Source of the DNA: Deltaproteobacteria bacterium HGW-Deltaproteobacteria-2
Lineage (GTDB): Bacteria; Desulfobacterota; Syntrophia; Syntrophales; Smithellaceae
Reading direction: 5' to 3'
Length of the DNA: 64,000 nucleotides
Assembly (NCBI GenBank): GCA_002840505.1
Contig: PHBC01000003.1
Coordinates: 1-64,000, forward strand
The notes beneath the pieces were generated by a model, which was given only the letters and a program-made list of their open reading frames with translations, ran no database searches and was not told the DNA's origin. Within the stretch, counting starts at the first letter, position 1. Each line of letters starts with the position of its first letter. Positions 14,502-51,494 of the stretch are shown here, one piece after another. The translations under genes were made by a program, and so were the position numbers.

Positions 14502-15260
14502 CTATATATGCTTTTTCGCGGTATTATCAGAGTCTTGGAACAGCGATTTGCGTAGAATAAGATGATAACTTTTAAGAACATTGCGATACTGTTCAATGAA
14601 AGTATGGCTTTCTTCTATTGTTGATGTCATGAATGTCCGCATCATTTGTTTCATCATATTTATGTGATCCCCTATATCTTCGCCTTTCATTGAAAAAAGA
14701 ACGATTTCCGTCATTTTTTTTCGCAATGGGCGACACGTATTAGATAACAATATAACAATAATGTTATGCGCGATATCCGCAACTAATTCTTGCGATTTGA
14801 GTTCAAGTTCCACTAAACGATTTTTGTCATGCAGGTTGGCAAGGCCTTCATCTAAAATTTCCATCGCGGTTTTAAAATCACGAGGTGTGTAATGTTTTAC
14901 TGCCATTTTAAGTATTTCCGGATAGAATGCTATCCAGAACTCCCATAATTCGTCAATTATGTACGGATCAATCAGCAATTCTTCATCAGTCTGTTCTAAC
15001 TGCAGGAAAAGGATTCTCAAAAAATCAATACTTGCTCCTTTCAGAAAATCCCGCACATAGATACCATCACCCTGGCGAATGAAAAGAACATTCATCATCT
15101 CCAAATGTTTTAATCCGATTCTAAGCGATACTCTGTCCACATCCATTTCTTTGGCAAGCTGCCTTTCAGAGGGTAACTTATCACCCGGTTTAAGCTGTCT
15201 GCTGAAAATCTGCTTAATTAATATATTCACTACTCTCTCGTGGACTTGTACGTCCTCCAT
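14502..15260 (-). CDS. GntR-family transcriptional regulator, FadR subfamily
   Basis: The 252-residue protein opens with the GntR winged-helix: LKPGDKLPSERQLAKEMDVDRVSLRIGLKHLEM, then GDGIYVRDF, and continues into an all-helical FCD-type ligand domain. Members bind a short acid or acyl-CoA and control catabolic genes. The ATG at 15260 follows AGGAG. It lies between the acyl-CoA synthetase gene (convergent) and the divergent TRAP/lipid cassette, either of which could be its target. I found no clear TGGTnnnACCA operator in its upstream region, unlike the case at 44953-45040. Confidence 0.85.
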   Translation of the reverse strand: MEDVQVHERVVNILIKQIFSRQLKPGDKLPSERQLAKEMDVDRVSLRIGLKHLEMMNVLFIRQGDGIYVRDFLKGASIDFLRILFLQLEQTDEELLIDPYIIDELWEFWIAFYPEILKMAVKHYTPRDFKTAMEILDEGLANLHDKNRLVELELKSQELVADIAHNIIVILLSNTCRPLRKKMTEIVLFSMKGEDIGDHINMMKQMMRTFMTSTIEESHTFIEQYRNVLKSYHLILRKSLFQDSDNTAKKHI

Positions 15261-15605
15261 AACTTCTCCTTATCAATATTCTGCTTGTTTTGACTTTGTA
15301 TTTAAACGCATTCATTCATAAAATGAAAAAATATCTTGACATCCGGATAATGTATATCTATTATTGGACTATTAACTAAGCTAAATTGTTTTACCATAAC
15401 GTTTGTATTAAAGTACCATATCACTTTCTTATTAACAAGGAATAAGTTGAATAGTGTTGTGATAACGAGTCCTTTGTCGGAAAAGTCCACCAAAAAGAAT
15501 GTGGATTAAAAATTATTTTTTTAACTTTGCCTTTGAATCTTCATATCTGGCAGTGAATTTAATAAATTTCATTTAATGGTCAAACTCTTTCTAAAAGGAG
15601 GTTTT
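15261..15605. other. Divergent promoter region before the TRAP/lipid cassette
   Basis: About 345 bp of AT-rich DNA between the FadR-type regulator and the first copy of the cassette's signal-peptide gene. A minus-strand frame of 63 codons (15302-15493) has no ribosome site or family likeness and I do not call it. Just before 15606 there is a strong AAAAGGAGG ribosome site. Confidence 0.4.
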
Positions 15606-15854
15606 ATGAAGTTAAGAAAATTTTTCTGGTTTATCTTTTTCGGATTAACAGAGTTTTTTATTAGTCCTGCTTTTGCACTTACTCTTGGAGAAAAAGTAAA
15701 ATATATCAGGTTTTTAATGGGATCTAAAATAGAACTTACACCGCGTGAAAGAGAGAAATATGCGAAGGCTTTTCTAGAGTCCACTAGCGGAATTACATTA
15801 ATAATCTCATTTTATATTCAAAATCTTTTTGAAAGGAGGTTTTATGACATGTAG
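15606..15854 (+). CDS. Truncated secreted copy of the TRAP protein N-terminus (two LTPxEK repeats)
   Basis: The start MKLRKFFWFIFFG, behind AAAAGGAGG, gives a signal peptide ending ...SPAFA, followed by two repeat units (LTLGEKVKYIRFLMGSKIE and LTPREREKYAKAFLESTSG) and then 20 residues of read-through into the next repeat copy. The signal peptide and repeats match those of the full-length binding protein at 16010-17404. The solute-binding domain is missing. This may be a degenerate duplicate or a small secreted repeat protein; the intact ribosome site and open frame leave the second possibility open. Confidence 0.5.
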   Translation: MKLRKFFWFIFFGLTEFFISPAFALTLGEKVKYIRFLMGSKIELTPREREKYAKAFLESTSGITLIISFYIQNLFERRFYDM

Positions 15855-16013
15855 AAAAACTTATTAGGCTCCTCTGTTTGGTTTACTTGTTTTTCTTATT
15901 AGGACAACTTCTGCCTTTGAGCCTACGGTGCGAGAAAAGAACAAATATGCGAGTAGTCTTACGTTAAAAGTCTCATTTTATATTCAAAATCTTTTTGAAA
16001 GGAGGTTTTATGA
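15805..16013 (+). repeat. Direct repeat carrying ribosome site and signal-peptide start
   Basis: A 43-nt block is identical at 15805-15847 and 15971-16013 (period 166 bp); it ends in GAAAGGAGGTTTTATGA, the ribosome site and start codon of the following copy. Similarity continues past the identical block with a few changes. It marks a tandem duplication of the 5' part of the TRAP binding-protein gene. Confidence 0.85.
15844..15970 (+). pseudogene. Decayed second copy of the TRAP protein 5' end
   Basis: Starting at the ATG at 15844 the DNA reads MTCRKTY then stop, against MKCRKLVRLL in the intact gene; one extra A in the run after the AGA codon explains the frameshift. Further on, remnants of the signal peptide end (TSAF) and of a repeat unit (REKNKYASSLT) can be read in the shifted frame. 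The ribosome site is intact, so translation would abort after seven codons. Confidence 0.7.
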
Positions 16014-17404
16014 AATGTAGAAAACTTGTTAGGCTTCTCTGTTTGGGCTTAGTTGTATTTTTTATTGGATCAACTTCTGCTTTTGCTCTTACGCCTGGAG
16101 AAAAGGTTAGATATGCAAGGGGTTTATTGGGATTGGTATCTGCAGGAGAACTTACACCACAGGAAAGAGAAAAATATGAGTTTTTTTCAATGGGTTCTAA
16201 AATAGAACTTACATCGCAGGAAAAAGAAAAGTATGCGAAGGCTTTTCTAGAATCCGCGAGCGGTCTCAAACCGCAGGAAAAGGCAAGATATGCAAAATTT
16301 TTAATGGGATCCTTTAGCGAACTTACGCCTCAAGAAAGAGAAAAATATTCTGATATTTTTCTGGAATTCGCACTCATGCTTACACCTCAAGAAAAGGCAA
16401 ACTACGCAAATCTTCCTGGCGTACAGCACTTAAAAAAAATTAAATCAAACAGTGATTACACTTATGCTGTCAAGATGGCTACGCTTGCCCCCGATGGTGT
16501 CGGGTGGGCTACTTTAATTAAAGAAGTAATCAATCCCGGAATATTAAAGATGACAAGCGGCTTGATAACTTTGGATTGGTATTATGGTGGCACGATGGGC
16601 GATGATCAGGATATCCTGGCCAAAATGCGCAATGGGCAACTGCAGGGAGGTGGATTTACCGGATGGGGACTGGTGTTGGCTTGTCCGGAGATGGCAATAA
16701 TGGAACTCCCGTTCTTGTTTAATAATTATGATGAAGTGGAATATATTTACTCCAAGCTGAGACCTCGCATTAGTCAGTGGTTCGAAAAGCGAGGATACCA
16801 TCTTGTTCTGTTGGCAGAACAGGATTTTGATCAAATCTACTCCACGAAGTATCCAATCAAAACACCCGAAGATTTTAAGAAGAGCCGTTTCTTGACATGG
16901 TACGGACCTGTGGAAGAGAGAACTTTAAAAGCTTTGGGCGCAAGCCCTTTGCCGATTCGCGTGCCCGAGGTAGCGGCTTCCATCCGGACAGGAGTATGCG
17001 ATGCCTTCATCAGTCCGGCTCTCTGGGCGGTCGGCACCCAAATGTACACCATAATGAAATACATCAATCCTGTTCACATAAGATATTCACCGGCAGGTGG
17101 TGTTATAACTAATCAGACATGGAATCTAATGCCTAAAGAAGCTCAGGTGGCTATCGATTATTTCGTAATGTCAGTGGAAAAGGATTTTCGGCAAAAAGTC
17201 CGTGCCGGCAATGAAAAATGCATTAAGTCTATGATTAAATATGGTATGAAAGAAGTCAAGATGACCCCGGCGGAGCTTGATATTTTAAAGAAGAGACTCG
17301 TGTCGGTTTGGGACGAATCAGCCGAGAAGGGATATTATTCCAGGGCCGAGTTAGCCGAAGTTAAAGCTCTTTTAGCGGAGTATCGAGCCAAGAATAAAAA
17401 ATAA
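16010..17404 (+). CDS. TRAP-type (DctP family) solute-binding protein with N-terminal LTPQEK repeats
   Basis: The 464-residue protein has a signal peptide (cleavage after about residue 26, SAFA), then six units of about 19 residues of the pattern LTPQEKxKYAKxLxxSxS (residues 27-135), and then a DctP-type periplasmic binding domain (about 145-464) with GGTMGDDQDILAKMRNGQLQ, MELPFLF and the RVPEVAASIRTGVCDAFI strand-helix. DctP proteins bind carboxylates or other small acids for TRAP transporters. The repeats are not part of the normal family. The start at 16010 follows AAAGGAGG. No DctQ/DctM membrane genes are nearby. Downstream genes code for lipid-binding proteins and a fatty acyl-CoA ligase, suggesting a hydrophobic acid as ligand. 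Confidence 0.83.
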   Translation: MKCRKLVRLLCLGLVVFFIGSTSAFALTPGEKVRYARGLLGLVSAGELTPQEREKYEFFSMGSKIELTSQEKEKYAKAFLESASGLKPQEKARYAKFLMGSFSELTPQEREKYSDIFLEFALMLTPQEKANYANLPGVQHLKKIKSNSDYTYAVKMATLAPDGVGWATLIKEVINPGILKMTSGLITLDWYYGGTMGDDQDILAKMRNGQLQGGGFTGWGLVLACPEMAIMELPFLFNNYDEVEYIYSKLRPRISQWFEKRGYHLVLLAEQDFDQIYSTKYPIKTPEDFKKSRFLTWYGPVEERTLKALGASPLPIRVPEVAASIRTGVCDAFISPALWAVGTQMYTIMKYINPVHIRYSPAGGVITNQTWNLMPKEAQVAIDYFVMSVEKDFRQKVRAGNEKCIKSMIKYGMKEVKMTPAELDILKKRLVSVWDESAEKGYYSRAELAEVKALLAEYRAKNKK

Positions 17405-17491
17405 ATACAATTTGTCTTAAATTATTTTAAAATACAAGAACAGTTATTAAATTGGCATAACGAAAATTACAATAGATTGGAGGATAAAAAA

Positions 17492-18088
17492 ATGAGTGAA
17501 GACATTACAAAAAGTACAGCAAATCAGACTTTTACTATTTCCGTTAATGTAAGAGAGTTGTTAACTGAGTTTGTCCCAAAACTAGCCAGGGAATATATTA
17601 AGATGCGGGGAGCGCAGGAAGAACTAAAAGATACGGAACTGACATTGACCTTGGACATATCGGGCAGTTTATACAGTTATATCATCAAGGACGGTGTCAA
17701 TTTTGATGTAAAGGAAGGCGAGATTGCAAATCCTAATGTTCGGATCTCATTCTCCATGGAAAGCATGTCTAAAATGCTGGATATGAAGAACGTAGACATG
17801 TTGATCGGCATGCAGAGACAGTTGACACGACAAAAATTCGAGGTACTTTCCGGGTTGAAGGGAACCAGTGTGTTCCAGATAACAAATTCAGACGGTACTA
17901 TTTCCGAGATTACAGCAACATTTAATGATACACAGACCCCTAAGGCTTTACTAAGGCTCTCCTTGGAGAATGCCAATCTTATTAATAGCGGAAAGGAGTC
18001 ACCCATCAATCTTTACATGGCCGGGAAAATGAAGATAGACGGCGATATAGCCTTTGCCATGAAACTGCAACCGCTGTTTACAGCATAA
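17492..18088 (+). CDS. SCP2-type sterol/lipid carrier domain protein
   Basis: A 198-residue protein without signal peptide. The central pattern of a beta-sheet with FDVKEGEIANPNVRISFSMESMSKMLDM followed by the MKIDGDIAFAMKLQPLF ending is that of the SCP2 fold, whose members hold acyl chains or sterols in a hydrophobic tunnel. The second part (about 110-198) repeats the pattern loosely. The ATG at 17492 follows GGAGG. It lies 87 bp after the TRAP binding-protein gene and probably shares its transcript. A cytoplasmic lipid carrier acting between import and CoA activation is a reasonable guess. Confidence 0.65.
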   Translation: MSEDITKSTANQTFTISVNVRELLTEFVPKLAREYIKMRGAQEELKDTELTLTLDISGSLYSYIIKDGVNFDVKEGEIANPNVRISFSMESMSKMLDMKNVDMLIGMQRQLTRQKFEVLSGLKGTSVFQITNSDGTISEITATFNDTQTPKALLRLSLENANLINSGKESPINLYMAGKMKIDGDIAFAMKLQPLFTA

Positions 18089-18192
18089 AATTTTTGATAC
18101 ATTATTAAGATTTTTATAGTCGGTTGCTTATGGTAGCTATTCGATTCTACTTAAACATTATGAATTTTGACTTGGGATTGTCTTAAATAGCC

Positions 18193-18633
18193 ATGGGTAT
18201 AAAAAATATTTTTTACAAAACCCGGCTTTCGTTATTAATGTATGGCTTTGCGTGGCTTATTCGACTAGTCGGAATCATCAATAGGGATTTCCACGCGCGA
18301 TTGTCCCGGAACGACTACTCATTTATCATGAGTTCCAGAGAAGATGATACTGCTCGATACTTTCGGTTTATCGGCGGAAATCTGCGTTCAGGCCGTAGCC
18401 GAATTCCGGTAGATTTCGCACTGATTTGGCGGGACAATCAATCCGGTGGCAGAGTGATGACAGATATTGTTCTAGGCAAGCGCAAGGCACTTTACAATGC
18501 CGTGATCAAAGGAGTACTCACCCTGGAAGGCGAAGGAAAATATGTTTCATTGTTTATGGAAATCATGAATCATCTCAATCGAATTTTCACAAAGAATAAG
18601 ACAAAAGGCGGAGGTTACGATAAAAAAGCCTGA
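18193..18633 (+). CDS. Small protein of unknown function, possibly SCP2-like
   Basis: A 146-residue basic protein. Residues about 8-25 (LLMYGFAWLIRLVGII) are hydrophobic enough for an amphipathic or single membrane helix. The rest alternates strands and ends in a helix (LEGEGKYVSLFMEIMNHLNRIF), a layout that loosely recalls SCP2-type domains such as its neighbour, but I see no diagnostic motif. The start codon lacks a strong ribosome site. It is placed between the SCP2-like and START-domain genes in the same direction, so it likely belongs to the same lipid-handling cassette. Confidence 0.55.
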   Translation: MGIKNIFYKTRLSLLMYGFAWLIRLVGIINRDFHARLSRNDYSFIMSSREDDTARYFRFIGGNLRSGRSRIPVDFALIWRDNQSGGRVMTDIVLGKRKALYNAVIKGVLTLEGEGKYVSLFMEIMNHLNRIFTKNKTKGGGYDKKA

Positions 18634-18708
18634 TTACAGGCGCGGGATTACATGAAGATTGCACCAAGTATCTGGGGTTTAACAGTTAAAACATACATGG
18701 AGGTGTTT

Positions 18709-19977
18709 ATGCAGTTAATCATCAGGTTTTTCTGTGTTGTATGCGGAGTGTTACTTCTGGGTTCCATTGCCTGCGCTGAAGGCCAGTGGGAGCTTATCGA
18801 GTCAAAAAACGGCATTGATACATACAAGATGACCCATCCGGGAACCGATATATGCACGTTCAAGGGAATGGGCTTTGTTGATGCCAAAATAGAAGTCGTC
18901 GGTGAGGTAATGCGTAATATTCAAGCATACCCCGAGTGGATGGCCAAGTTCAAGAAAACGACCATACTTAAAACCATTGACCGGAACACATATGTTTTTC
19001 ATGCCATTTTGAAAACACCAATACCATTTCAAAATAGAGATATAGTAATCGAAAACCAGACAAAGTATAACTTTAACAACGGCACTTGTCTGATCTCTTT
19101 CCGGTCGTCAAATAGCTTCAACTATCCTAAACAGGAGGGATACTTCAGGATCACCGAACTGGAAGGCCAATATTATCTTGAATATTTCGGCAGAGATAAG
19201 ACACGGATTACTTATCAGTACCGGTCCGATCCCGGCGGCAATATTCCTGTTCATCTGGCTAACGAGATAGAAATCAAGCATTATCCGGCTCAGACTATTA
19301 CCGGCTTACGCAAGATAGTGCAAAAGAAAAAATATATAGATGCCGGTCTGGCCTCGCCTGATCATGACATGATTGAACGGATGCTGGACAGTAAAAAAGA
19401 TGTGGCCAACATATTGAAAAACAGGATCGGTGAATACATTATTGACCCGGTTTTACTGAATATGCTGTTCGAAATGACGACACCCAAAAAGATCGTGGAC
19501 AACGTGTATGCTACCCGTTCTGATTTTGCAAGCATTCGGCAGGGGATAGTCGATCTGTTAAATGTCGTTACCGAAAAGGGACATACCGGACAACAGAAGC
19601 AGGAAGTTGATACTATAATCGCCTATCTAACGGATAAGGAGTTTGACAGCTTTTTTTCTATGAAGAACTTCATGGGCGAGAAATGGCTTTTGGATGAGAT
19701 CATAAAAGATAAAAAACTCGTCCATGGACTTTTCGACATGGAAAGCAGTCTTGCCAAGGTGATTTTTGAAAAGGTCACTACATCCAAAACAGCGGTGACT
19801 TCATTCATCAAAGACAAGCGGCTTGCTGAAAGCATTCTTACGAATGCATCCATCCGGGAAAAGTTGTGGGCGGATAAGGTGCTCAGGATGAGGCTGACCA
19901 ACGAATTGGGCATGTTTAGAAGCACCAGGGATTTTGAAAATCTAATCGCGGAGCGTGTGAAAAGCTATTCACTATAA
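18709..19977 (+). CDS. Secreted START/SRPBCC-domain protein with extra C-terminal domain
   Basis: The ATG at 18709 follows ATGGAGGTG and opens a clear signal peptide (MQLIIRFFCVVCGVLLLGSIACA). The mature protein begins with a START-like lipid-binding domain (about residues 25-215): WELIESKNGIDTYKM, GFVDAKIEVVGEVMRNIQAYPEWM, and NEIEIKHYPAQTITGLRKIV at its end. The same landmarks occur in the 50783-51469 protein. A further about 200 residues of charged helices (from about 225) have no counterpart in that paralogue and are unknown to me. START domains enclose one lipid or sterol. Periplasmic transfer of a hydrophobic substrate is the likely role. Upstream in-frame codons from 18652 lack a ribosome site. 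Confidence 0.78.
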   Translation: MQLIIRFFCVVCGVLLLGSIACAEGQWELIESKNGIDTYKMTHPGTDICTFKGMGFVDAKIEVVGEVMRNIQAYPEWMAKFKKTTILKTIDRNTYVFHAILKTPIPFQNRDIVIENQTKYNFNNGTCLISFRSSNSFNYPKQEGYFRITELEGQYYLEYFGRDKTRITYQYRSDPGGNIPVHLANEIEIKHYPAQTITGLRKIVQKKKYIDAGLASPDHDMIERMLDSKKDVANILKNRIGEYIIDPVLLNMLFEMTTPKKIVDNVYATRSDFASIRQGIVDLLNVVTEKGHTGQQKQEVDTIIAYLTDKEFDSFFSMKNFMGEKWLLDEIIKDKKLVHGLFDMESSLAKVIFEKVTTSKTAVTSFIKDKRLAESILTNASIREKLWADKVLRMRLTNELGMFRSTRDFENLIAERVKSYSL

Positions 19978-20063
19978 ACCGCCCGATAGTTTACGGGAAA
20001 GTTTTTTCCCATCGTTTGATATTTAGTGATTTGTTCTCAAAAATAATTCAGAGGTGAGTTTTT

Positions 20064-21944
20064 ATGGTCAGTGCTGCCTTACCGTGGCTAAAGGAATATA
20101 ATATCTTCGGCATACCACAAACGTTAAACCCTTATCCGGATAAACCCGCATACGATATTCTGTATGAGACAGCCAGGAGATTCAAGAAACAGGGTCTTGT
20201 TCAGATAGACTATTTTATGAGTTATCCGGAAGTGAAGAATCATGTTGATCGTCTGGCTACGGTCTTGTTTAACATGGGACTGAAAAAAGGCGACAGGGTT
20301 GCAACTCTTTTACCGACTTCAATCCAGTTTGTTATCGCGGATTATGCTATTTCCAGAGCCGGTCTGGTACATATCCCCAGCAGCTCTCTGGAACCGGCCG
20401 ATCATTTGCAACATAAATTCAAAGAAGGTTCACCCTATTCTCTGATTTGTCTGGATGAATATCTGGACGTCGTTAAAAATATAGTACAGCATGTTGAGAT
20501 AAAGAATATTATCGTTTCAAAATTAGACGATTATTCGCTTAATAAACCCAAAAGCTATGAACCGCTTACATTAAAAGGCGCGCAGTGGTGGACTGAATTG
20601 ATTTCAAAGACTCCCCCCAGTCCTCCCGAAATCACCTTTGATGTGGCAAAAGATCTGGAATTGATCCTTTTCACCGGTGGGACAACAGGTCTTCCCAAAG
20701 GATGCATGCTGACGCATCGCAACGTGTACGCCAACACTATGCAAAACGCCAATGCCATGGGCGGAGCGCAAAAGCTGGTCAAAGGTGCTCTGACCGTTTT
20801 AATGGGACTACCTTTCTTCCATTCCTATGGTCACTGTACCATGCATACTATGACCTACGAGGGCTATAATCAGATATTGATTCCCGATGCGCGTGATACA
20901 GCAAGCATGGTCAGAATGATCAAGGAGTATCATCCGTTTTTACAGATAGGCGTGCCGACTCAATTCCTGAAATTAACACAGGGAGAATTAAAGGATGTTA
21001 ACATTCTGGGCATTTCCGGTTCGGCACCCTTGCCCAAGACAGTTCAGGAAGAATTTGAAAAGAAGGGCGGCGGAGGCGGAATCATGGAAGGTTACGGTCT
21101 TTCCGAAATGTCGCCCGTTACCCATCTGAATACATCATTTCTGCTGCGGATTTTGGGCGGTAGAACTCTTGTAAAAATAAACAGCAAGCTTCTTCAGATA
21201 CCGGGTGTTGTCCCTATGATCAATAATTTTTTACGTCTTTTAGGCAGTAGAAATACCGGCTTCATGATGAGCAAAGGCATGGGCCTTTTATCGAGGCTGA
21301 CCGCGAATAAAGCAACAAAACCGAAAAAGGTCGTTGAAAAAAGAGGAACCATAGGCGTTCCGATGCCCGATACGGAAATAAAGATTGTCGATATCGATAC
21401 AGGAGCGATCCTGTCCTGGGATGAAATTGTTAAAGGCAAGACAGGTGAAATGTATCTGCGCGGTCCGCAGAGGATGCTGGGATACTGGCCCACGCCGGGA
21501 AGCGGTCTCGATGAAGAGGGGTACGTTCATACAGGCGATGTCGTCAAGGTTGATGAAAACGGTTATTTCTATATCGTTGATAGAACCAAGGACATGATAA
21601 TTGTTTCAGGATTCAAGGTATATTCCAGAGAGATTGACGACATCTTACAGGGGTGTCCCGGCGTAGGAAGGGCTGCGACAATCGGCATTCCCGATCCCGA
21701 AAGACAGGGTAGTGAGCGTGTATGTGTGTTTGTCGAGCCGCAGAACGGATGCGAAAGGGACATTACCGAAGAAAAGATAATAAATTATCTGAAGAATTCA
21801 GTGGCAAAATATGCAGTACCGAAAGTTGTGAAGATAGTTGAATCAATACCCCTTACTGAAGTCCAGAAAGTGAACAAGAAATTATTGCGCCAGATAGCTG
21901 AAAAGGAAGCCGCCGGCAAGAAAGCAGATGGTGCAAGCTCATAA
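20064..21944 (+). CDS. Long-chain fatty-acid-CoA ligase (AMP-binding)
   Basis: The 626-residue protein has LILFTGGTTGLPKGCMLTHRN (P-loop-like acyl-adenylate motif), GYGLSEMSPVTH, the YVHTGDVVKVDENGYFYIVDRTKDMI hinge region and a C-terminal lysine in TEVQKVNKKLLR. The last departs slightly from the usual PxxxxGKxxK, with VQKVNK in place of SGK. It should activate a fatty or other hydrophobic acid to its CoA ester. GAGGTGAG precedes the ATG. It ends the TRAP/SCP2/START cassette, 86 bp after the START gene, and so would catalyse the trapping step after uptake. Confidence 0.86.
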   Translation: MVSAALPWLKEYNIFGIPQTLNPYPDKPAYDILYETARRFKKQGLVQIDYFMSYPEVKNHVDRLATVLFNMGLKKGDRVATLLPTSIQFVIADYAISRAGLVHIPSSSLEPADHLQHKFKEGSPYSLICLDEYLDVVKNIVQHVEIKNIIVSKLDDYSLNKPKSYEPLTLKGAQWWTELISKTPPSPPEITFDVAKDLELILFTGGTTGLPKGCMLTHRNVYANTMQNANAMGGAQKLVKGALTVLMGLPFFHSYGHCTMHTMTYEGYNQILIPDARDTASMVRMIKEYHPFLQIGVPTQFLKLTQGELKDVNILGISGSAPLPKTVQEEFEKKGGGGGIMEGYGLSEMSPVTHLNTSFLLRILGGRTLVKINSKLLQIPGVVPMINNFLRLLGSRNTGFMMSKGMGLLSRLTANKATKPKKVVEKRGTIGVPMPDTEIKIVDIDTGAILSWDEIVKGKTGEMYLRGPQRMLGYWPTPGSGLDEEGYVHTGDVVKVDENGYFYIVDRTKDMIIVSGFKVYSREIDDILQGCPGVGRAATIGIPDPERQGSERVCVFVEPQNGCERDITEEKIINYLKNSVAKYAVPKVVKIVESIPLTEVQKVNKKLLRQIAEKEAAGKKADGASS

Positions 21945-22127
21945 AAATATGCTCTGGCTGAACTCTGGGTTGCCTAAAGCGCAATTGGTTTTTGTCATTT
22001 TGGGAGAAACACTCAAAATGGCAGAATTCAAATCCCCTTGTCCGCAATAAATTTCATCAAAATAAAATACATATACTGACAGGAAGAGAATTGCCGCATA
22101 AAATGTGGCAATTCTTCTATTTCTTTT

Positions 22128-22190: not shown

Positions 22191-22220
22191 AAAAGGGCGC
22201 GTTATTCACCGCGCCCTTTT
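22191..22220. terminator. Bidirectional terminator between convergent genes
   Basis: AAAAGGGCGCG (22191-22201) and CGCGCCCTTTT (22210-22220) form a perfect stem with a T run on either strand, ideally placed between the acyl-CoA ligase gene and the convergent ydbL-like gene. Confidence 0.85.
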
Positions 22221-22240: not shown

Positions 22241-22813
22241 CTATTTTTTCTTCTCCCAATTGCCGCCGTCGTTTTGCACCCACCAGCCGGACTGAGATTT
22301 TTCTCTCCAACTGTTGGCGAATATTTTCTTTATCTGTGGCACCGAGTCCGAGCCGAGCTTGTTCGCGCTGGCGATTTCGCTGTAAAGCGCCGCGCGATCT
22401 TTGTTTTCCTGATCGATTAGTTTATTGACCAGGCTTCTTTCCTGTAGATTTAATCCTGCCGTATCTTTGGCCTCGATCAACCCCTTGTTGTTTTCGCCTA
22501 GCGCACCCTTGTCATAGAATGTCTTCAACTGCGCGTACCGGCTCTTAATCGATTCCTTGATGCCGCGGATAGCGGGGGTTGACACATCAATATTCACTTC
22601 GGCGTATGCCGGTCTCGCGCCGAACATGAAATCCAGAGAACTTGTGGGGCCCGGCTTTTCCACAGGCGATTCCGGGGTATTGGTACGGATATCATCAACG
22701 ATCTTGTCCGCTGCTTTCTGAACTTCAGCCGCCGGGAAATAGATGTTTACGGTAACGCAGGCAACAATTACAAAAGCTGCAATATAACTGATTGCTTTGA
22801 ATGTTTTTTTCAT
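22241..22813 (-). CDS. YdbL/DUF1318-family lipoprotein-like protein
   Basis: The 190-residue protein starts with a signal segment ending IVACVTVNIYFPAAEVQKAADKIV; the Cys near residue 19 looks like a lipobox residue. The C-terminal half (from about 95) matches the YdbL/DUF1318 pattern: IKSRYAQLKTFYDKGALGENNKG, LVNKLIDQENKDRAALYSEIA and the WWVQNDGGNW ending. GGAGG precedes the ATG. It lies 49 bp downstream of a YdbH-like gene, as in the enterobacterial ydbH-ynbE-ydbL operon, where YdbH and YnbE bridge the envelope to move phospholipids and YdbL modulates them. No separate ynbE is seen; the lipoprotein N-terminus here may cover that role. Confidence 0.75.
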   Translation of the reverse strand: MKKTFKAISYIAAFVIVACVTVNIYFPAAEVQKAADKIVDDIRTNTPESPVEKPGPTSSLDFMFGARPAYAEVNIDVSTPAIRGIKESIKSRYAQLKTFYDKGALGENNKGLIEAKDTAGLNLQERSLVNKLIDQENKDRAALYSEIASANKLGSDSVPQIKKIFANSWREKSQSGWWVQNDGGNWEKKK

Positions 22814-22862
22814 AAATCCTCCTGTTTCAATAAGTGTTTTTTATTTTAACACAATTTATTTT

Positions 22863-25472
22863 TTACGGCACGTTCTTTGTTTCTTTTTGTGATTTGGTTA
22901 TTCTGCTCATTCTTTCGGCCATATCCTTGAAACTGATATAACTATCGGGATTCTGATTGACAATATCTACTCCCCTGAACAACGCCTTTCTTACAAGATA
23001 TTCTTTACCCGAGTCGTGAATAAGTCCCCGCAGTTTGAAAATATCATCCTTGAGAGTGCACCTCATGCCGATTTGGCTGTAAGGATAATCTTTGAAAAAC
23101 TGGTTGATGCCGCTGTTTAAGATGGCGGAAATCGCTCCTGAACCGGTGCTGACGATAGAAAGATCATTAATCGCATCAACGCTGATCAGTTTCGGCACAC
23201 TTCTGCTTGTATCCGTTTCGATCACAAGATCAAAACTGGACGGCTGATCATATTCCATCGAAAAATTCTTTAACGATCCTTTGATAAGACCTGTCATCCG
23301 TCCCACCTTGAGGCTCGACGTGAGCTTTTCCAGATCGATATGATCAAAACCGGCATCGGCTCCAAAAAACTGTGACGCGGAAAATAACCGGCCGGCAAAA
23401 ATGTTTTCTATTTTGATTTGTCCGCCGAAGGACTGCGCGACAAGCGCACCGCTGGCAGTCCACTTTCCATTCTGAAAAATTATGGAAGGTAATTTCCCGT
23501 CAATCATTCCGGATAAAAGCACCGGCTCTTCCTGTTCTATTATTTGCTCAATATTAACATGTCTGATGACCATGCCCGTTTCCGCGCGCATTTCCGGTCG
23601 CAAAAGATTTTCCACCCTGAAACCCGCAAGGCTGATTTCACCATCGAATATTTTGGCGTTTATCGGATCAGGCAGGATAAACCTGTTGCCGGAGAATACA
23701 ACCGGCATAGCAAATTTGCTGATCCGGATATTATCCTTTTCCAACAGATCAAAAGCAACGGCGCCGGTCTTGCCGCCGGAAGAAGATGCGGCAGGAGTAC
23801 CGGTAAAAGCAAGATCGTAGGGCAGTGAAACGTTCAGCCCGGTCAGTGTCAGCGAGTTTGCGGGCGAACGCACATCGACGCCGCGCAGGGCCAGATCACC
23901 CTCAATCATTTTTTGCCGGTCGGATATCAGAGCCGTGAGTTTTAAATCCGCGTCGCCTTCGATCTTCAAATCCTTAAAATTGGAATAATTCTGACTGATA
24001 TAATTTTGCGCGGCAACGCTAAACAGACGCTTGAGCAAAATGCTTTTTGCGTTGAGAGAAATGAGATTTCTGTCGGGCGACACATCAGCGGAAAATTTAT
24101 AATTGCCGGTCTGAAAGAGATCGCCTGTCCCCGACAAAGAAAGCGAAAAAGGTTTTTGAGCAAATGCGCCCTGCGCGGAAATCTTAGCTTTTTTGCCCTT
24201 GAAGTCCTGATAATAAGCTCCCCAGAGAAACTCACCGACCGCGCAATCCGTGTTGAAATTGAAACTGCCTTTGCGGCCTCCGCCCGGCGCATCAAACTTA
24301 AGTTCCGTTCTGCTGTTCATCTTTTCTGCGGCTTTGGAACTATCGGCAGAAGCGAAACCCCCTTGGCGAAGGTCAACAATTGCTTTTGCCTTCCATATCA
24401 GAGCATCCTCTTCCTGTCTGCCCCAGCTTTCTATTTCAAATCCGCTTTTACCCTTAAATTTCCAGTCGCGATAATTATCGGGCAGCAGTGGTTTTATAAG
24501 GACGCTAATCCGCGCGATGTCCAGGGACGAGGCATGCAAAGAAGCGTTCCAAACCAGTGGATTGGCGGTTACCGAAATTCCGCCTTTCAGCAATCCGATG
24601 TCCGCGCCTGATATTTCCAGCGACGTAAGAGAAAAACCGGATGTCTTCTGATCGTATGATGCATTGAAGTGAGCCTCGATATTTTTAATCGCAAGCCGCC
24701 CTTTGCCTACTCCCTGAGTAATATTACTGACTGTTGCGCTGGCGCCGTCCAGAGAGATCATATCACCGTCCAGTTTGAGACCGGATGTGAACGCTCCGTT
24801 ATCGAGTTTTATGTCACTATATAAACTCTTATCCAAAATAATCCGAAACGAACCGGAAGCATGAGGCGCTGGCGAAAATCGGGCAAGGTCAAGTGCCGTT
24901 TCCAGTGAGCCTTCGACGGCAGTGCTTCCGGAAGTAATGATAAAACCGCTCTTACCGTTAAGATGACCGGCGCCATCAGGATTAAAATCATTTATGCTCA
25001 TATTCATGCCGGACAGAGAATAGATTGTCGCATCCGCTTTCAAATCCAGCCGGCCGTTTTTCACTTCCAGAAGATGGACCCGAGGCAGCTTTTTGAGGGT
25101 TTCCAACGGGTTGGTTTCCGATTTTTCTTTTTTCAGATAGAATATAAATTTCGGATCGGTAAGAACCATCTTCTCTATATTGATTTTCCACCAGCGGCTG
25201 ACACTGCCTTTGATATCCGCCCTGGGCAGAGAAATCGTAAAACCTTTTTCCTTCATTTCCTTGATCTGCAGGCCGCTGATATGGCCGCCGAGATGACGAT
25301 CAAGATAAATGTCATCGACATGCAGATAAATACCGGTCATGGGCTGCGCATATGCCGCCAGCCTGTTTACGGCGCGGGGGGACTGCAAAAGGGGAAACAG
25401 TCCGATAAGCACTGCCGCAGGCACGGCAAGAATTAAAATGATTATGGTAATGACGAATACTTTCTTTTTCAT
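22863..25472 (-). CDS. YdbH/AsmA-like intermembrane lipid-transport protein
   Basis: An 869-residue protein with one N-terminal membrane anchor (about residues 5-27, VFVITIIILILAVPAAVLIG) followed by a long beta-rich periplasmic body with repeated short strands, typical of AsmA-like bridge proteins. The C-terminal part, with LVRKALFRGVDIVNQNPDSYISFKDM and a preceding GVSGAISAILNSGINQFF-like stretch, resembles YdbH. Such proteins form a hydrophobic groove spanning the periplasm for phospholipid transfer to the outer membrane. Upstream of and presumably cotranscribed with the ydbL-like gene. The assignment rests on overall character plus the neighbour rather than on a short motif. Confidence 0.72.
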   Translation of the reverse strand: MKKKVFVITIIILILAVPAAVLIGLFPLLQSPRAVNRLAAYAQPMTGIYLHVDDIYLDRHLGGHISGLQIKEMKEKGFTISLPRADIKGSVSRWWKINIEKMVLTDPKFIFYLKKEKSETNPLETLKKLPRVHLLEVKNGRLDLKADATIYSLSGMNMSINDFNPDGAGHLNGKSGFIITSGSTAVEGSLETALDLARFSPAPHASGSFRIILDKSLYSDIKLDNGAFTSGLKLDGDMISLDGASATVSNITQGVGKGRLAIKNIEAHFNASYDQKTSGFSLTSLEISGADIGLLKGGISVTANPLVWNASLHASSLDIARISVLIKPLLPDNYRDWKFKGKSGFEIESWGRQEEDALIWKAKAIVDLRQGGFASADSSKAAEKMNSRTELKFDAPGGGRKGSFNFNTDCAVGEFLWGAYYQDFKGKKAKISAQGAFAQKPFSLSLSGTGDLFQTGNYKFSADVSPDRNLISLNAKSILLKRLFSVAAQNYISQNYSNFKDLKIEGDADLKLTALISDRQKMIEGDLALRGVDVRSPANSLTLTGLNVSLPYDLAFTGTPAASSSGGKTGAVAFDLLEKDNIRISKFAMPVVFSGNRFILPDPINAKIFDGEISLAGFRVENLLRPEMRAETGMVIRHVNIEQIIEQEEPVLLSGMIDGKLPSIIFQNGKWTASGALVAQSFGGQIKIENIFAGRLFSASQFFGADAGFDHIDLEKLTSSLKVGRMTGLIKGSLKNFSMEYDQPSSFDLVIETDTSRSVPKLISVDAINDLSIVSTGSGAISAILNSGINQFFKDYPYSQIGMRCTLKDDIFKLRGLIHDSGKEYLVRKALFRGVDIVNQNPDSYISFKDMAERMSRITKSQKETKNVP

Positions 25473-25804: not shown

Positions 25805-25967
25805 AATGTCTAGACTATTATGAGACAATTAATAAATCCATCATTCTCTTTCCTCCCTTGAGGGGAGGAAATTAAAAGGAGGGTGAAGTATTTTTTTAAT
25901 CGCCCCCTCCCCTCAATCCCCTCCCTCAAGGGTCGGGGAAGTTTTTGAAGAAGGCAACTTGGTATCA

Positions 25968-26141
25968 ATCCATTTTCTGTAAATATTCAATTCTCTCAAT
26001 CAGCGGCGGCCAATTCACAACCAGACAAACAAAATAGAGCCCGACAAGGGATAAAACAATCATAAATATTAATTGTTGTAAAATATGTTTCTTTTTCCAG
26101 TGGCCGATTTCATGGGCAAGCACCACCAGTATTTGGTCGTG
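25968..26141 (-). pseudogene. Truncated, internally deleted copy of the M48 peptidase gene
   Basis: Read on the minus strand this stretch encodes ILVVLAHEIGHWKKKHIL, continues through VGLYFVCLVVNWP, and then jumps directly to PLIERIEYLQKMD and stop. The intact gene at 27812-29074 has the same two segments about 90 codons apart (VVNWPSLYG... and PPLIERIEYLKSID). So this copy lacks everything before the zinc motif and has a deletion between the two segments. Nucleotide identity with the intact gene is high across about 130 bp, so the duplication is fairly recent. Confidence 0.85.
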
Positions 26142-26204
26142 CTGAAAAAAGGATGTTTTATTAATACTCACATCTTCTGCTTGACAGAAACGTTCCCACG
26201 CTAT

Positions 26205-26286
26205 AGGTAACGAACAGGGGTGGCCGACAAGGTCTGAGATTATACCCTTTGAACCTGATCCGGGTAATGCCGGCGTAGGGAGAGAA
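26205..26286 (+). promoter_or_regulatory. TPP riboswitch (THI element)
   Basis: The conserved core is complete: AGGGGTG, then GTCTGAGATTATACCCTT, GAACCTGATCCGGGTAAT and GCCGGCGTAGGGA. It lies 97 nt before thi4. Binding of thiamine pyrophosphate should switch off the two thiamine genes through the terminator that follows. Confidence 0.93.
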
Positions 26287-26298
26287 AAAGGTGTATCC

Positions 26299-26332
26299 AT
26301 CCGTTTCCCCTCATGAGGAAACGGATTTTTTT
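26299..26332 (+). terminator. Intrinsic terminator, expression platform of the TPP riboswitch
   Basis: ATCCGTTTCC (26299-26308) pairs perfectly with GGAAACGGAT (26317-26326) and is followed by a run of seven T. It stands between the aptamer and thi4, so control is by transcription attenuation. Confidence 0.88.
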
Positions 26333-26382: not shown

Positions 26383-27153
26383 ATGTTAAACGAAGTAATT
26401 ATCAGTCGGGCAATTCTGGATTCCTATTTTAAAAAGCTTGATAGCTGTTTGGATCTTGATGTCGCCATAGTCGGCGGCGGACCATCAGGTTTGGTGGCCG
26501 GATACTATCTGGCCAGGGCAGGACGGAAAGTGTCACTTTTCGAACGCAAGCTCTCGATAGGGGGTGGCGTTTGGGGAGGCGGCATGATGTTCAATTCCAT
26601 CGTGGTGCAGGAGGCCGGCCGGCAACTGCTTGACGAATTCGACCTCAAAGGTTCGGAATATACGCCCGGCTATTATGTGCTCGATGCCGTGGATGTCACT
26701 GCAACACTCATCCACAAGGCCGTGCGGGCCGGTCTGCAGATCTTCAACCTCATTACCATGGAGGATGTGGTGATCAAGAACGAGCGCGTGGCCGGTCTGG
26801 TCATCAATTGGAGCGCTGTTGATATCCTGAAGTGGCATGTGGACCCGATAACCCTTCACGCCAAATATGTCATCGACGGCACGGGGCATCCCGCCAATGT
26901 CGCCGAAGTACTCGTCCGGAAAATGGGCGTCAGACTGAATACGAGCACCGGCGGCATCGTGGGTGAAAAATCCATGGAGGCCGAACAGGGCGAGATGCAA
27001 ACTGTAGAAAACACCCGCGAGGTCTATCCCGGGCTTTATGTCAGCGGCATGGCCGCCAATGCGGTTTATGGCGGCTATCGCATGGGTCCGGTCTTCGGCG
27101 GCATGCTGCTCTCGGGCCGCAAGGCGGCTGAAATGATTCTGGCGCACCTATGA
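26383..27153 (+). CDS. thi4: Sulfide-dependent ADP-thiazole synthase (Thi4 family)
   Basis: A 256-residue flavoprotein-like fold with [18 protein letters not shown] at the N-terminus, [18 protein letters not shown], a conserved DGTGH and the closing [21 protein letters not shown]. Thi4 makes the thiazole half of thiamine from NAD, glycine and a sulfur source. Eukaryotic Thi4 sacrifices an active-site Cys; this protein has only one Cys (residue 22, outside the active region), so it must use free sulfide, as the archaeal and anaerobic types do. GGGAGG precedes the ATG at 26383. It is under a TPP riboswitch, overlaps thiE by 4 bp, and is visibly more GC-rich than its flanks. Confidence 0.9.
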
Positions 27154-27800
27154 TTACAGCAAAAGATCAAACACTCAGAGCAGACCTGCGGCGCGGGCTT
27201 TATCTTGTATTGACTGAACCGCGAGACGGGTATGAAACGGTCTGCCGGTGGGCGGTGGAGGCAGGTCTTCCGGCAGTGCAATTGCGCTACAAGGGCAGTG
27301 ACGATCGTGAACATCTTGCTCTGGCGCAAGCTCTGCGACTGATCACCAAAGGCACCGGCACGCTCTTCATCGTGAATGACCGGCCCGATATCGCACGCAT
27401 CTCGCAAGCCGACGGAGTGCATCTGGGTCAGAATGATCTTCCGGTTGCGGAAGTCCGGCGGATCATCGGCCCGGCCATGTTGCTGGGCCTTTCCACGCAT
27501 GACATAGAGCAGGTTGCCACCGCGAACACCGCGCCTGTAGATTACATCGGGTTCGGGCCTTTGTTCTCCACCAATTCCAAGGCGCAACCCGATCCGGTAA
27601 CCGGTCCCGGGGCATTGAAAGCCGCGCTGGTCATCAGCCGACATCCCGTCGTAGCCATAGGCGGGCTGAATCTGGAGCGTATCAAGCAACTGCATGCACG
27701 CCCGCATAATGCGGCAGTTATCCGGGCTGTAAGTGACGCGCCCAATCCTCTGGCCGCTATGCGCGCGATCAATGCTGCTTGCCTGGACATGGACTTGTGA
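27150..27800 (+). CDS. thiE: Thiamine-phosphate synthase
   Basis: The 216-residue TIM-barrel protein carries ThiE landmarks: LPAVQLRYK at the first substrate strand, [22 protein letters not shown], the [13 protein letters not shown] loop and AIGGL at the phosphate site. It joins hydroxymethylpyrimidine pyrophosphate and thiazole phosphate. The start overlaps the thi4 stop (ATGA), so the two are coupled. As with thi4, G+C is above the neighbourhood. thiC and other thiamine genes are not in the window. Confidence 0.9.
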
Positions 27801-27811
27801 CGTCTGTCGGT

Positions 27812-29074
27812 TTAAGTATTGCCGATTTCTTTATCGATTGATTTTAAATATTCGATTCTCTCAATCAGCGGAGGATGGGAATAATAAAACCAGACATATA
27901 AAGGGTGAGGATGCAGATTAGATAGATTGTCTTTGGCTAATCGTTTGAGTGCGTTAATCATGGGCTCTGATGTTCCGGTTAACTCATGAGCCATTTTGTC
28001 AGCTTCACGTTCATACCGTCGTGAAATAATAGCGCCCAGGGGACTAAAGAAAAATCCTATGCAACTCAAATAAATAGAAACCAAAAGCAATCCGGCGTAA
28101 ACAGGCTTGTTTTTTAATCCGAACGCGCCATACAGCGACGGCCAGTTCACAACCAGATAAACAAAATAGAGCCCGACAAGGGATAAAACAATCATAAATA
28201 TTAATTGCTTCAGGATATGCTTCTTTTTCCAGTGGCCGATTTCATGCGCGAGCACCGCCAGTATTTCTTCGTGCGAATGAGAAGCAAGCAAAGTGTCATA
28301 CAGAACGATGCGCTTGGTTTTGCCAATGCCGGTAAAATAGGCGTTGGTATGCTTGGAACGTTTGCCTTCATCAACCTGAAAAATTCCCTTGGCCTTTAAT
28401 CCGACTTTGGCCAGCAGCGATGTGATTTTTTCTTTCAGCTCTTCATCCTTAATCGGTTCATATTTATTAAAGAGCGGAGCGATGACCACCGGATAAAGCC
28501 ACATCAGTAAAATTTCAAACGCTGTAAAAAACACCCAGGCCCAGAACCACCAGCTTTTCGGCAGGTAAAGAATAAAAGCCATGAAGGCGGAAAGCAGTAC
28601 TCCCATTAAGACGGCGGAAATGATCACAGATTTCACAAGGTCCGTAAGCCACAGCTTCCAGGTAATCGTGGAAAAACCATATTTCTTTTCCAGAACAAAC
28701 GTGTGGTAAATGTCGAATGGAATTCCCGCGACACCACCGATGACCGACAGTACCCCGAAAAAAATCAGCGCCTGCCAGATTAAGTGCCACTGCAACCCAA
28801 AGAGTTTCCCGACAAGCACCGGCAGTAAAAGAAACAATATGGCCAGTTCCAGAATGTCTTCGACTAAATTTTCTTTAGTTTCCAGACGCGAATTGTCATA
28901 AGTATAATCCACCATTTTCGCCAGAGTTGCTTCATCAATCATACCCTGAAAAACAGGAGGAATCTCCTTGCCGTGATTTCGCAAATGTCTGATGTTGAGT
29001 TGCTGTAAAATATAACGCCAGATTATCCGGCCGAGAAACAAAATTAAAAATAAAATTAAAAGCGTATTTTCCAT
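27812..29074 (-). CDS. M48 family metallopeptidase (Ste24/CAAX-protease-like membrane protein)
   Basis: A 420-residue membrane protein with several transmembrane segments, the zinc motif HEIGH at about residue 278 (AVLAHEIGHWKKKH), and a downstream EREADKMAHEL that supplies the third ligand. The long N-terminal membrane part and the YEPIKDEELKEKI region are like Ste24-type rather than the shorter HtpX proteases. Probably membrane-protein quality control or cleavage of a membrane substrate. The stop is 12 bp from the thiE stop (convergent). A deleted copy of its 3' half lies on the other side of the thiamine cassette. Confidence 0.88.
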   Translation of the reverse strand: MENTLLILFLILFLGRIIWRYILQQLNIRHLRNHGKEIPPVFQGMIDEATLAKMVDYTYDNSRLETKENLVEDILELAILFLLLPVLVGKLFGLQWHLIWQALIFFGVLSVIGGVAGIPFDIYHTFVLEKKYGFSTITWKLWLTDLVKSVIISAVLMGVLLSAFMAFILYLPKSWWFWAWVFFTAFEILLMWLYPVVIAPLFNKYEPIKDEELKEKITSLLAKVGLKAKGIFQVDEGKRSKHTNAYFTGIGKTKRIVLYDTLLASHSHEEILAVLAHEIGHWKKKHILKQLIFMIVLSLVGLYFVYLVVNWPSLYGAFGLKNKPVYAGLLLVSIYLSCIGFFFSPLGAIISRRYEREADKMAHELTGTSEPMINALKRLAKDNLSNLHPHPLYVWFYYSHPPLIERIEYLKSIDKEIGNT

Positions 29075-41548: not shown

Positions 41549-42505
41549 TTAGATGTTATTCATTACACTGAATCGTGATTTAAAATCATAATGTTCCAAA
41601 TCTTTTTGCGCCAGCTTTCGCGAAGGACATTTATGCAAACAGCAGCCACAGAAATCGCCGCAGATAATCCCGAAGCAGTTTTCCAGCATGGATTTATCGT
41701 AATAATGCATCTCCCCGCTCGATTGCGCTATGGCATAATTGATGAATGATCCGGGACCATCGGGAATTTTGATATCGCTCCTTCCGCCGGAGCCCTTGAC
41801 CATTCCGTGGATGGCATATATACAGCGAACATTATCATGTGCTGCATATTCGAATGTTCGTTCGCCAATCTGCACTGTCTGTTTTTCGTCAGCGGATAGA
41901 GCCTGCGTGGGACAGGTTTTCACGCAAATGGCGCCGCATTGCTCCTTCCGGCACAATTGTGGTCCATTGTAAAGATATGTCGGCTCAAGTTCCGCCGACG
42001 TCAAAATAGAATTGAATCGCTGCATGGCGCCAAATTCCGGCGTCAGGGCAAGTCCGTTCCACCCGAAGTCAGCAATCCCCGCGGCAACTGCCGCGTGACG
42101 GTGCGAAAACTCAGCTCGCAACTTTCCCTCAACCAGGCTTTCGTCCATGTATTTAGTCATACTGGTTAACCACGTAGGCAAGAAACAAAGGCTCTTGTGT
42201 CCCTGATACTCCAGCAATTTTGCGACACGGTTGACAATGCGCGAGCTTTCGATATTCGTTAATCCGTATCCGTAAAAAAGATAAGGTGTGATTGATTTGC
42301 ATCTGTCTTCATAGACTCCCCACACATCCGCTGTACCCTGTAAAATGTGCAGTCCGATTGAAATAACCGATTTGCATTGCGGCATAAAATCGGTGGGCCG
42401 GTGTCCATCCGGCGCATGGGCAAACCTTTCCACTGGCGCGATACCTACCAGATCAGCGCCCAGATCAAGCAGAGTTTTAACAGTTTTTTGCGTTAGATTA
42501 TCCAT
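41549..42505 (-). CDS. QueG-like double [4Fe-4S] protein of the glycyl radical locus
   Basis: The 318-residue protein has Cys clusters CRKEQCGAICVKTCPTQAL and CFGIICGDFCGCCLHKCPS, consistent with two 4Fe-4S clusters, after an N-terminal region like the catalytic part of epoxyqueuosine reductase relatives (DLVGIAPVERFAHAP, IADFGWNGLALTPEFGAMQRF). It lacks a CX3CX2C radical SAM motif, so it is not a standard glycyl radical activase. It is 33 bp downstream of the glycyl radical enzyme gene, behind GAAGGAGA, and presumably is cotranscribed. An electron-transfer or reductase role linked to the radical enzyme's product is the most natural guess. Confidence 0.72.
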   Translation of the reverse strand: MDNLTQKTVKTLLDLGADLVGIAPVERFAHAPDGHRPTDFMPQCKSVISIGLHILQGTADVWGVYEDRCKSITPYLFYGYGLTNIESSRIVNRVAKLLEYQGHKSLCFLPTWLTSMTKYMDESLVEGKLRAEFSHRHAAVAAGIADFGWNGLALTPEFGAMQRFNSILTSAELEPTYLYNGPQLCRKEQCGAICVKTCPTQALSADEKQTVQIGERTFEYAAHDNVRCIYAIHGMVKGSGGRSDIKIPDGPGSFINYAIAQSSGEMHYYDKSMLENCFGIICGDFCGCCLHKCPSRKLAQKDLEHYDFKSRFSVMNNI

Positions 42506-44920: not shown

Positions 44921-44952
44921 CAATACAAACCTCAAATAATATTTTCGGCTTA

Positions 44953-51469: not shown

Positions 51470-51494
51470 AATTATTTTTCGCTTGAAATTTCCA

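Follow-up and report, generated by a model that had tools for sequence, protein, structure and literature searches.

The 64,000-nucleotide stretch analyzed here (the window; contig PHBC01000003.1 of Deltaproteobacteria bacterium HGW-Deltaproteobacteria-2) carries five co-directional genes for a DctP-type binder of tripartite ATP-independent periplasmic (TRAP) transporters, an SCP2-domain protein, a small protein (orf3), a START-domain protein, and an acyl-CoA ligase. A reading made from the sequence alone had joined them into one candidate cassette that would take up a hydrophobic acid and trap it as a CoA ester. We find that linkage of the five genes fails in relatives, and we somewhat favor a division into separate modules. 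The window binder would be a satellite TRAP receptor that uses a shared DctQM and has a hydrophobic, probably acidic ligand, and SCP2-orf3-START would be a neighboring lipid unit.

Linkage of the five genes in relatives

The five plus-strand open reading frames (ORFs) were confirmed in the source genome (G000; 3.28 Mb, 11 contigs, 98.4% complete) at 16010-17404, 17477-18088, 18193-18633, 18652-19977, and 20064-21944. The families named in the sequence-only reading also held up, with all four (DctP, SCP2, START, and AMP-binding) scoring above their Pfam cut-offs. We searched 60 genomes for START, binder, and SCP2 relatives and 25 genomes for masD, DctP-family, and ligase genes, in each case including the source genome and, in the second set, with G016 outside.

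Conservation of gene order had been set beforehand as the test of the cassette, and what recurs is only a part of it. SCP2, orf3, and START stand together in G000, G006, and G013, in the latter two without binder or ligase. START matches of at least 61% over most of the protein were confined to the genus of G000 (G004, where the match is split between two contigs; G006; G008; G010; and G013, in two copies). G008 retains orf3-START near a contig end, G004 has a broken orf3 ahead of START, and G005 has SCP2 and an orf3 match holding a stop codon, with no START match beside them. No binder of the window clade was found in G006. G013 has three, and it is the only genome besides G000 with both a window-clade binder and an SCP2 orthologue; there, the binders lie on contigs other than that of SCP2. 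The ligase has orthologues (75-79% identical) in 5 of the 15 other genus genomes (G002, G003, G006, G010, and G013), and G043 has a relative at 50%. No START, SCP2, or orf3 was found within 1.5 kb of any of these ligase matches, and the ligase linkage is thus absent from all five other genus genomes found to have the gene. Adjacency of binder to SCP2 and of START to ligase was seen in G000 only. A conserved five-gene cassette was therefore rejected; judged by these comparisons, the set appears to be a neighborhood particular to a single Smithella genome. Of the hydrophobic-ligand system proposed earlier, uptake by the binder stays plausible and the single conserved system is not supported. The result warns against treating the five window genes as a single pathway.

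Thirteen receptors and one membrane transporter

G000 contains 14 matches to PF03480 (13 full-length binders and one fragment) and one to PF06808 (DctM). All 14 places also match the window binder, and the 12 other full-length binders are 63-79% identical to it. As the sequence-only reading had noticed, no DctQ or DctM lies beside the window binder. The membrane subunits are missing there because DctQM is encoded on another contig, and the idea of a binder without any transporter was rejected. The sole DctM match found in G000 (C5:147237-148469) lies in a locus ordered P-P-DctQ-DctM-TatT, the make-up of a tetratricopeptide repeat protein-associated TRAP transporter (TPAT), and the two binders in it are 75% identical to the window binder. 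The arrangement of one or two binders followed by Q-M-TatT is seen again in G004, G008, and G013.

Of the eight TatT (PF16811) genes in G000, five have a binder only a few genes away: one in the C5 locus, three at satellites, and one by masD with the binder fragment. These five carry an SGC lipobox-like motif. The satellites lie near genes for acyl-CoA dehydrogenases, CoA ligases, HGD-D-type dehydratases, BcrAD-type activators, carboxylases, and thiolases; some of these families were confirmed only on a member from another locus, and thiolases and biotin-carboxylase subunits were named by eye. Such genes are common in G000 (38 candidate ligases). One locus filed under an Alphaproteobacteria metagenome-assembled genome (MAG; L083, PHEM01000066.1) encodes a binder whose sequence in the tree alignment equals that of a G000 binder; the contig probably represents Smithella DNA that was mis-binned.

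The window binder and its binding site

The window binder matches PF03480 at 139.9 bits (cut-off 23.4) and NF037995 at 205.1 bits (cut-off 50). Its AlphaFold2 model (mean predicted local distance difference test score, pLDDT, 87) predicts an ordinary TRAP-binder fold, the core superposing on TRAP binders with Z about 35 (best row Z 35.6, root-mean-square deviation 1.9, 306 residues). About six repeats of ∼19 residues precede the DctP domain, and the signal peptide, identified by eye, has no lipobox. The closest named relatives are binders of Smithella spp. D17, SDB_sulfate1, and M82 and of the Syntrophaceae MAG UBA6255, whose genomes (G007, G008, G004, and G013, in that order) belong to the genus of G000.

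An arginine at the carboxylate site (Arg-147 of SiaP) occurs in 96.8% of DctP proteins and is absent from 3% (199 of 6142), and Tp0957 has Ala in its place with a hydrophobic pocket (PMC4646407). In the window binder, all five alignments to TRAP structures place Leu295 at this column; Tp0957 aligns with Ala there, in agreement with the published account. The canonical Arg was absent from all 60 rows of alignment A2 (the window binder and 59 of 84 ORFs). The column held Leu (14) or Gln (2) in 16 Smithella-group rows; Val (10), Ile (7), Leu (4), Met (4), or Gln (1) in 26 rows of a Desulfatibacillum group; and Trp (17) or Phe (1) in 18 more distant rows. In alignment A1 (26 rows), it was Leu 22, Gln 2, Ile 1, and Val 1. 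Because 3% of the family lacks this Arg, its loss is compatible with DctP membership. A different arginine, Arg358, is shared by all 42 rows of the two expanded groups and occurs in 1 of the 18 distant rows. Site 219, a Trp in the window binder that by comparison with SiaP may lie at the cleft, varies among Gln, Trp, His, and Tyr (18, 3, 3, and 2 of 26 rows) between invariant glycines. The Arg-to-Leu change, the TatT genes in the genome, and paralogues beside alkylsuccinate synthase and near acyl-CoA genes make a hydrophobic, probably acidic ligand plausible, as had been proposed.

Association with alkane activation

Like the window binder, one of the other G000 binders (C6:118347) carries the repeats and is preceded by a short leader ORF and a GntR gene. 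It is followed by genes for MasB (1.8e-29 to 9o8u_B) and MasD (1324 bits to 9o8u_A), an alkylsuccinate synthase, and the same binder-MasB-MasD order occurs in D17 (G007) and SDB_sulfate1 (G008). A stretch homologous to the short ORF upstream of the window binder precedes the masBD-linked binders of G000 C6, SDB_sulfate1, and D17. The masBD-linked binders of G000 C6 and G008 C1 are likewise preceded by GntR genes, which are only ∼40% alike to that of the window, over the first part.

Binders lie within about 1.1 kb of three of the five masD places in G000. Two of the five sit at opposite ends of contig C5 and may therefore represent a single gene or repeats. Random placement would give such proximity with an estimated probability of 1.6e-4 under a 3 kb rule and 1.2e-3 under a 6 kb rule. 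Among G000-G015, the binder clade occurs in four of six masD-positive and one of ten masD-negative genomes (P = 0.036, uncorrected for kinship and counting a masD fragment in G004). We regard the association as suggestive and not strict. Several masD paralogues stand at contig ends (G000 C5:1-2007, C5:290845-292740, and C6:3-2390) or, in G008, on short contigs; near-identical copies may break assemblies.

We built a tree from the 13 binders of G000 and 74 of 84 ORFs (10 dropped; rows longer than 480 residues cut to 400). The window binder groups with L058, L057_13944, and L079_5935 (support 87/87), and the mas-linked binders fall in a different group (93/95); a single clade of 11 rows (100/98) contains the two groups. 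We doubt that the window binder is a simple recent copy of a masBD-linked binder, despite the common leader and repeats. With moderate support, its gene may be a mosaic.

A second expansion in Desulfatibacillum and relatives

The binder family is also multi-copy, at 37-46% identity, in Desulfatibacillum and relatives. DctP:DctM counts are 16:5 in D. alkenivorans (G060), 16:5 in a Desulfatibacillum MAG (G061), and 22:1 (DctM partial) and 21:2 in two MAGs with related binders (G062 and G063), compared with 2:2, 9:6, 13:19, 6:6, 15:22, and 23:27 in the comparison genomes G064-G069; the counts include partial and split matches, and the DctP matches there may not all belong to this clade. TatT is scarce in G060-G063 (2, 2, 1 below the cut-off, and 1). 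In the tree, all 29 rows of the Smithella group fall into a single clade (100/100) that excludes the 30 L091-L115 rows making up the Desulfatibacillum group, some of which are filed only as Desulfobacterales, Deltaproteobacteria, or Proteobacteria. The separate clade indicates that the Smithella expansion is its own. Its nearest neighbors, with weak support (92/68), are L091 and L100, each of which has P, Q, M, and TatT in one locus. No MasD-like gene was found in the flanks searched (up to 6 kb) of L091-L115. In L096, L101, and L104 and in the G062 and G063 matches, DctP lies in open frames of ∼490-615 residues and may carry extensions.

The SCP2, orf3, START, and ligase proteins

The SCP2 protein scores 53.4 bits with PF02036 (cut-off 21.3), which identifies an SCP2-carrier domain, and its profile matches structures 4uei (1e-9) and 1c44 (1.8e-7). 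No signal peptide was seen by eye, and the protein is probably cytoplasmic. Orf3 matched no family in Pfam or NCBIfam. Its orthologues are 67-81% identical, its best PDB match was a ribosomal protein (E-value 0.15), its single-sequence model is unreliable (mean pLDDT 45), and hhalign against SCP2 gave a probability of 0.2%, from only four close rows (effective number of sequences 1.4). These results gave no support to the earlier suggestion of a possible SCP2-type carrier, which orf3 may still be in divergent form.

The START domain (PF01852, 51.2 bits; cut-off 22) covers residues 41-205 of 441, and the best PDB matches are 3qsz (5.5e-14) and 1ln1. The proteins thus resemble START/StAR-related lipid-transfer proteins and SCP2 carriers in having domains above the Pfam cut-offs, with 3qsz the nearest START structure by sequence. 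The window START protein differs from that family by an additional C-terminal region of ∼200 residues, which matched nothing in any search run, and orthologues of the window SCP2 and START proteins above 60% identity were seen in the same genus only (60 genomes). One START copy in G013 (61%; L041:6452-13410 on its contig C5) follows genes for a beta-ketoacyl synthase III pair, an OleD-like reductase, and an alpha/beta hydrolase fused to a ligase similar to olefin beta-lactone synthetase. The gene set resembles the ole (long-chain olefin) cluster, with Ole-specific matches under their curated cut-offs; these surroundings hint that START-family proteins encounter long-chain lipids or hydrocarbons. 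A second START-domain gene of the window (50783-51508, minus strand; PF01852 3.1e-8) stands by a TetR gene and near acyl-CoA dehydrogenases, and G000 has four further START-type matches plus one C-terminal fragment.

The ligase has both its AMP-binding and C-terminal domains. Its best NCBIfam match, PRK06187, reached 320 bits against a cut-off of 476, and none of the 25 matches listed reached its cut-off.

Relation to known systems

Among free-living proteobacteria, TPATs occur mostly in hydrocarbon degraders (PMC5812351). The TPAT of Treponema pallidum (TatP(T) Tp0957, TatQM, and TatT) is alike in having a binder without the canonical Arg and a TatT gene beside DctQM, as at the C5 locus of G000. 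The G000 system differs in having 13 full-length receptors per DctM and, at the window, a binder without adjoining TatT, with repeats, with a signal peptide lacking a lipobox by eye, and with Arg358, which is found in only one of the 18 distant rows, 13 of which have an adjoining TatT. The Bug/TctC expansion of Bordetella, which belongs to the tripartite tricarboxylate transporters, likewise has many paralogous receptors without nearby membrane genes and few membrane subunits (PMC5812351), and G000, with 13 DctP for one DctM, shows the same layout. G000 differs in using DctP (PF03480), another transporter class, in fewer copies and with masD and acyl-CoA neighbors. Atribacterial fumarate-addition operons also have a TRAP binder adjacent to an alkyl- or arylsuccinate synthase; they contain DctP, DctQ, and DctM, whereas the Smithella mas locus has a lone binder and DctQM elsewhere (PMC6776118).

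Each element is thus already known by itself: TPAT, the Bug-type expansion of orphan receptors, and the presence of TRAP genes at loci for fumarate addition (PMC5812351 and PMC6776118). A limited literature search gave no description of a transporter of TPAT type that has 13 receptors, and it likewise gave no report, PMC2702500 included, of an expansion of DctP in Smithella or Desulfatibacillum. The word "TRAP" does not occur in the main text of PMC5606693, PMC2405808 gives 11 complete TRAP sets, and Desulfococcus multivorans forms a complete TRAP set on phenylacetate (PMC5109826).

Proposed mechanism

The observed gene content, copy numbers, and linkage, the absence of the Arg, and the one DctM found are the basis of the following proposal. 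In a first module, the window DctP binder would pick up its ligand, hydrophobic and probably acidic, in the periplasm and then dock on the single TPAT-type DctQM encoded on C5. The 12 other full-length binders would feed the same DctQM, with TatT helping some of the satellite receptors, and the substrates would be hydrophobic acids matched to the neighboring catabolic genes. In a second module, SCP2-orf3-START would be a lipid-handling unit, with START and SCP2 on two sides of the inner membrane. The acyl-CoA ligase, independently placed, could trap an acid as a CoA ester. Co-transcription of the five genes is possible, and a hand-over from the binder to START or SCP2 may occur.

More tentatively, and less likely than not, the proposal may extend to anaerobic hydrocarbon degraders as a TRAP hub, in which few transporters are served by at least a dozen interchangeable receptors without the canonical Arg. 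Each receptor would be encoded alongside a degradation island and would deliver the hydrophobic acid on which that island acts. Such a hub would cover Smithella (TPAT type) and, separately, Desulfatibacillum and relatives, the islands being alkylsuccinate synthase, beta-oxidation, dehydratase, or carboxylase genes. The route by which syntrophic alkane degraders move poorly soluble or amphipathic substrates through the periplasm is, to our knowledge, unsettled. If true, a shared TRAP transporter with exchangeable, scattered receptors would offer a testable uptake route, with candidate ligands given by the gene neighbors, and would be a TRAP counterpart to the Bug receptor expansion.

Alternative explanations

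The five genes could still be a genuine cassette newly assembled in this lineage, with capture by the binder, transfer by START and SCP2, and trapping as a CoA ester. They share a strand and short gaps, a promoter-like site lies before them and a terminator-like site after them with none between, and all four assigned families are generally known to handle hydrophobic or acidic ligands. We nevertheless consider this unlikely, because the binder-SCP2 and START-ligase adjacencies were seen in G000 only and because START appears secreted by eye and SCP2 does not, so that hand-over would need passage through the membrane, a step for which none of the five proteins has a known role. The surplus of 13 full-length binders for one DctM could instead mean that the orphan binders are periplasmic sensors or carriers, acting in chemotaxis, signaling, or ligand buffering and not as transport receptors. 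Kinase-like and response-regulator genes (by eye; L065:4059-6655) do lie ∼2.5 kb before the mas-linked binder on G008 C1. Such roles are hard to square with satellites 63-79% identical to the window binder when the pair beside DctQM is 75% identical to it, and with five of eight G000 TatT genes near binders (one in the DctQM locus and one by the binder fragment), and we judge them improbable. Uptake of ordinary C4-dicarboxylates such as fumarate or succinate, for example of fumarate for alkane addition, would fit the similarly built binder ahead of masB-masD in G000, an Arg358 that could hold a carboxylate, and the reading of DctPQM, present in all atribacterial fumarate-addition operons, as fumarate/succinate transport (PMC6776118). 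It is the explanation we hold to be quite unlikely: the Arg found in 96.8% of DctP (PMC4646407) is missing in all 60 rows, and a single C4 system would have no evident use for 13 receptors.

Several observations weigh against the division into a satellite receptor and a lipid unit. With Arg358 invariant in the expanded groups, an acid bound in a new way is possible, and by sequence the ligand may be an ordinary acid bound differently. The satellite binders may not use the shared DctQM; surplus TctC receptors have been suggested to serve signaling or chemotaxis (PMC5812351). Since G000 is 98.4% complete, a missed DctM is possible. TatT is not present at the window locus, and the window-clade binder occurs in only 5 of 17 genus genomes. 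At the mas loci, the G008 binder carries an in-frame stop, and one of the three masD-adjacent binders of G000 is a fragment beside a truncated masD; G001 and G011 have masD without these binders, and G013 (87% complete) has binders without masD. Finally, a possible single transcript of the five genes would make their joint function in this strain possible.

The window genes and their surroundings

Features around the five genes are listed in Table 1. The top NCBIfam matches of the divergent GntR regulator are PdhR, LldR, NanR, and FadR, each under its cut-off. The short upstream ORF runs into the ribosome-binding site of the next copy, and an additional partial copy lies at about 15802-15924. 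The promoter scan gave 27 sites in the region compared with 20.9 (standard deviation, SD, 4.2) in shuffles, and the terminator scan gave 10 compared with 6.7 (SD 2.9). Plus-strand terminator-like matches in 15500-22080 lie only within the ligase gene (20247-20264 and 20290-20302); with none between the genes, one transcript is possible, although these are weak consensus matches.

Table 1. Features at and around the five co-directional genes (positions in the window)
Feature	Position	Strand	Basis
GntR-family regulator, divergent from binder	14502..15260	-	PF00392 3.2e-14
Promoter-like site TTGACA-17-TATTAT	15336..15364	+	11/12 consensus match only
Short upstream ORF, signal peptide and two ∼19-residue repeats	15576..15854	+	ORF list, repeat comparison
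TRAP-type (DctP) periplasmic binder, signal peptide (by eye), ∼19-residue repeats	16010..17404	+	PF03480 1.3e-40
SCP2-domain protein	17492..18088	+	PF02036 3.5e-14 (ORF from 17477); ATG 17492 picked by eye
146-residue protein (orf3), hydrophobic N terminus	18193..18633	+	Between SCP2 and START in relatives too
START-domain protein, secreted by eye	18709..19977	+	PF01852 1.3e-13 (ORF from 18652); start by eye
AMP-forming acyl-CoA ligase, long-chain type by similarity	20064..21944	+	PF00501 5e-67, PF13193 2.8e-13
Terminator-like hairpin after ligase gene	22191..22220	+	Terminator scan

Just 3′ of the ligase, on the minus strand (22241-25472), are genes for a DUF1318 protein and an 869-residue protein with a weak T2SSN match, which may resemble the YdbL/YdbH pair implicated in lipid transport. 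A thiamine pyrophosphate riboswitch (26206-26298; RF00059, 64.6 bits) precedes genes assigned by eye to thiamine synthesis (26383-27153 and 27150-27800). A short minus-strand ORF with an HEIGH segment (25965-26300) is, by eye, a truncated part-copy of the peptidase-like gene at 27812-29074. A PFL2-type glycyl radical enzyme is encoded at 42539-44935 (minus strand), with a downstream gene (41549-42505) that has weak reductive-dehalogenase/QueG-type matches, and a 685-residue protein consisting largely of ankyrin repeats is encoded at 48666-50723 (plus strand).

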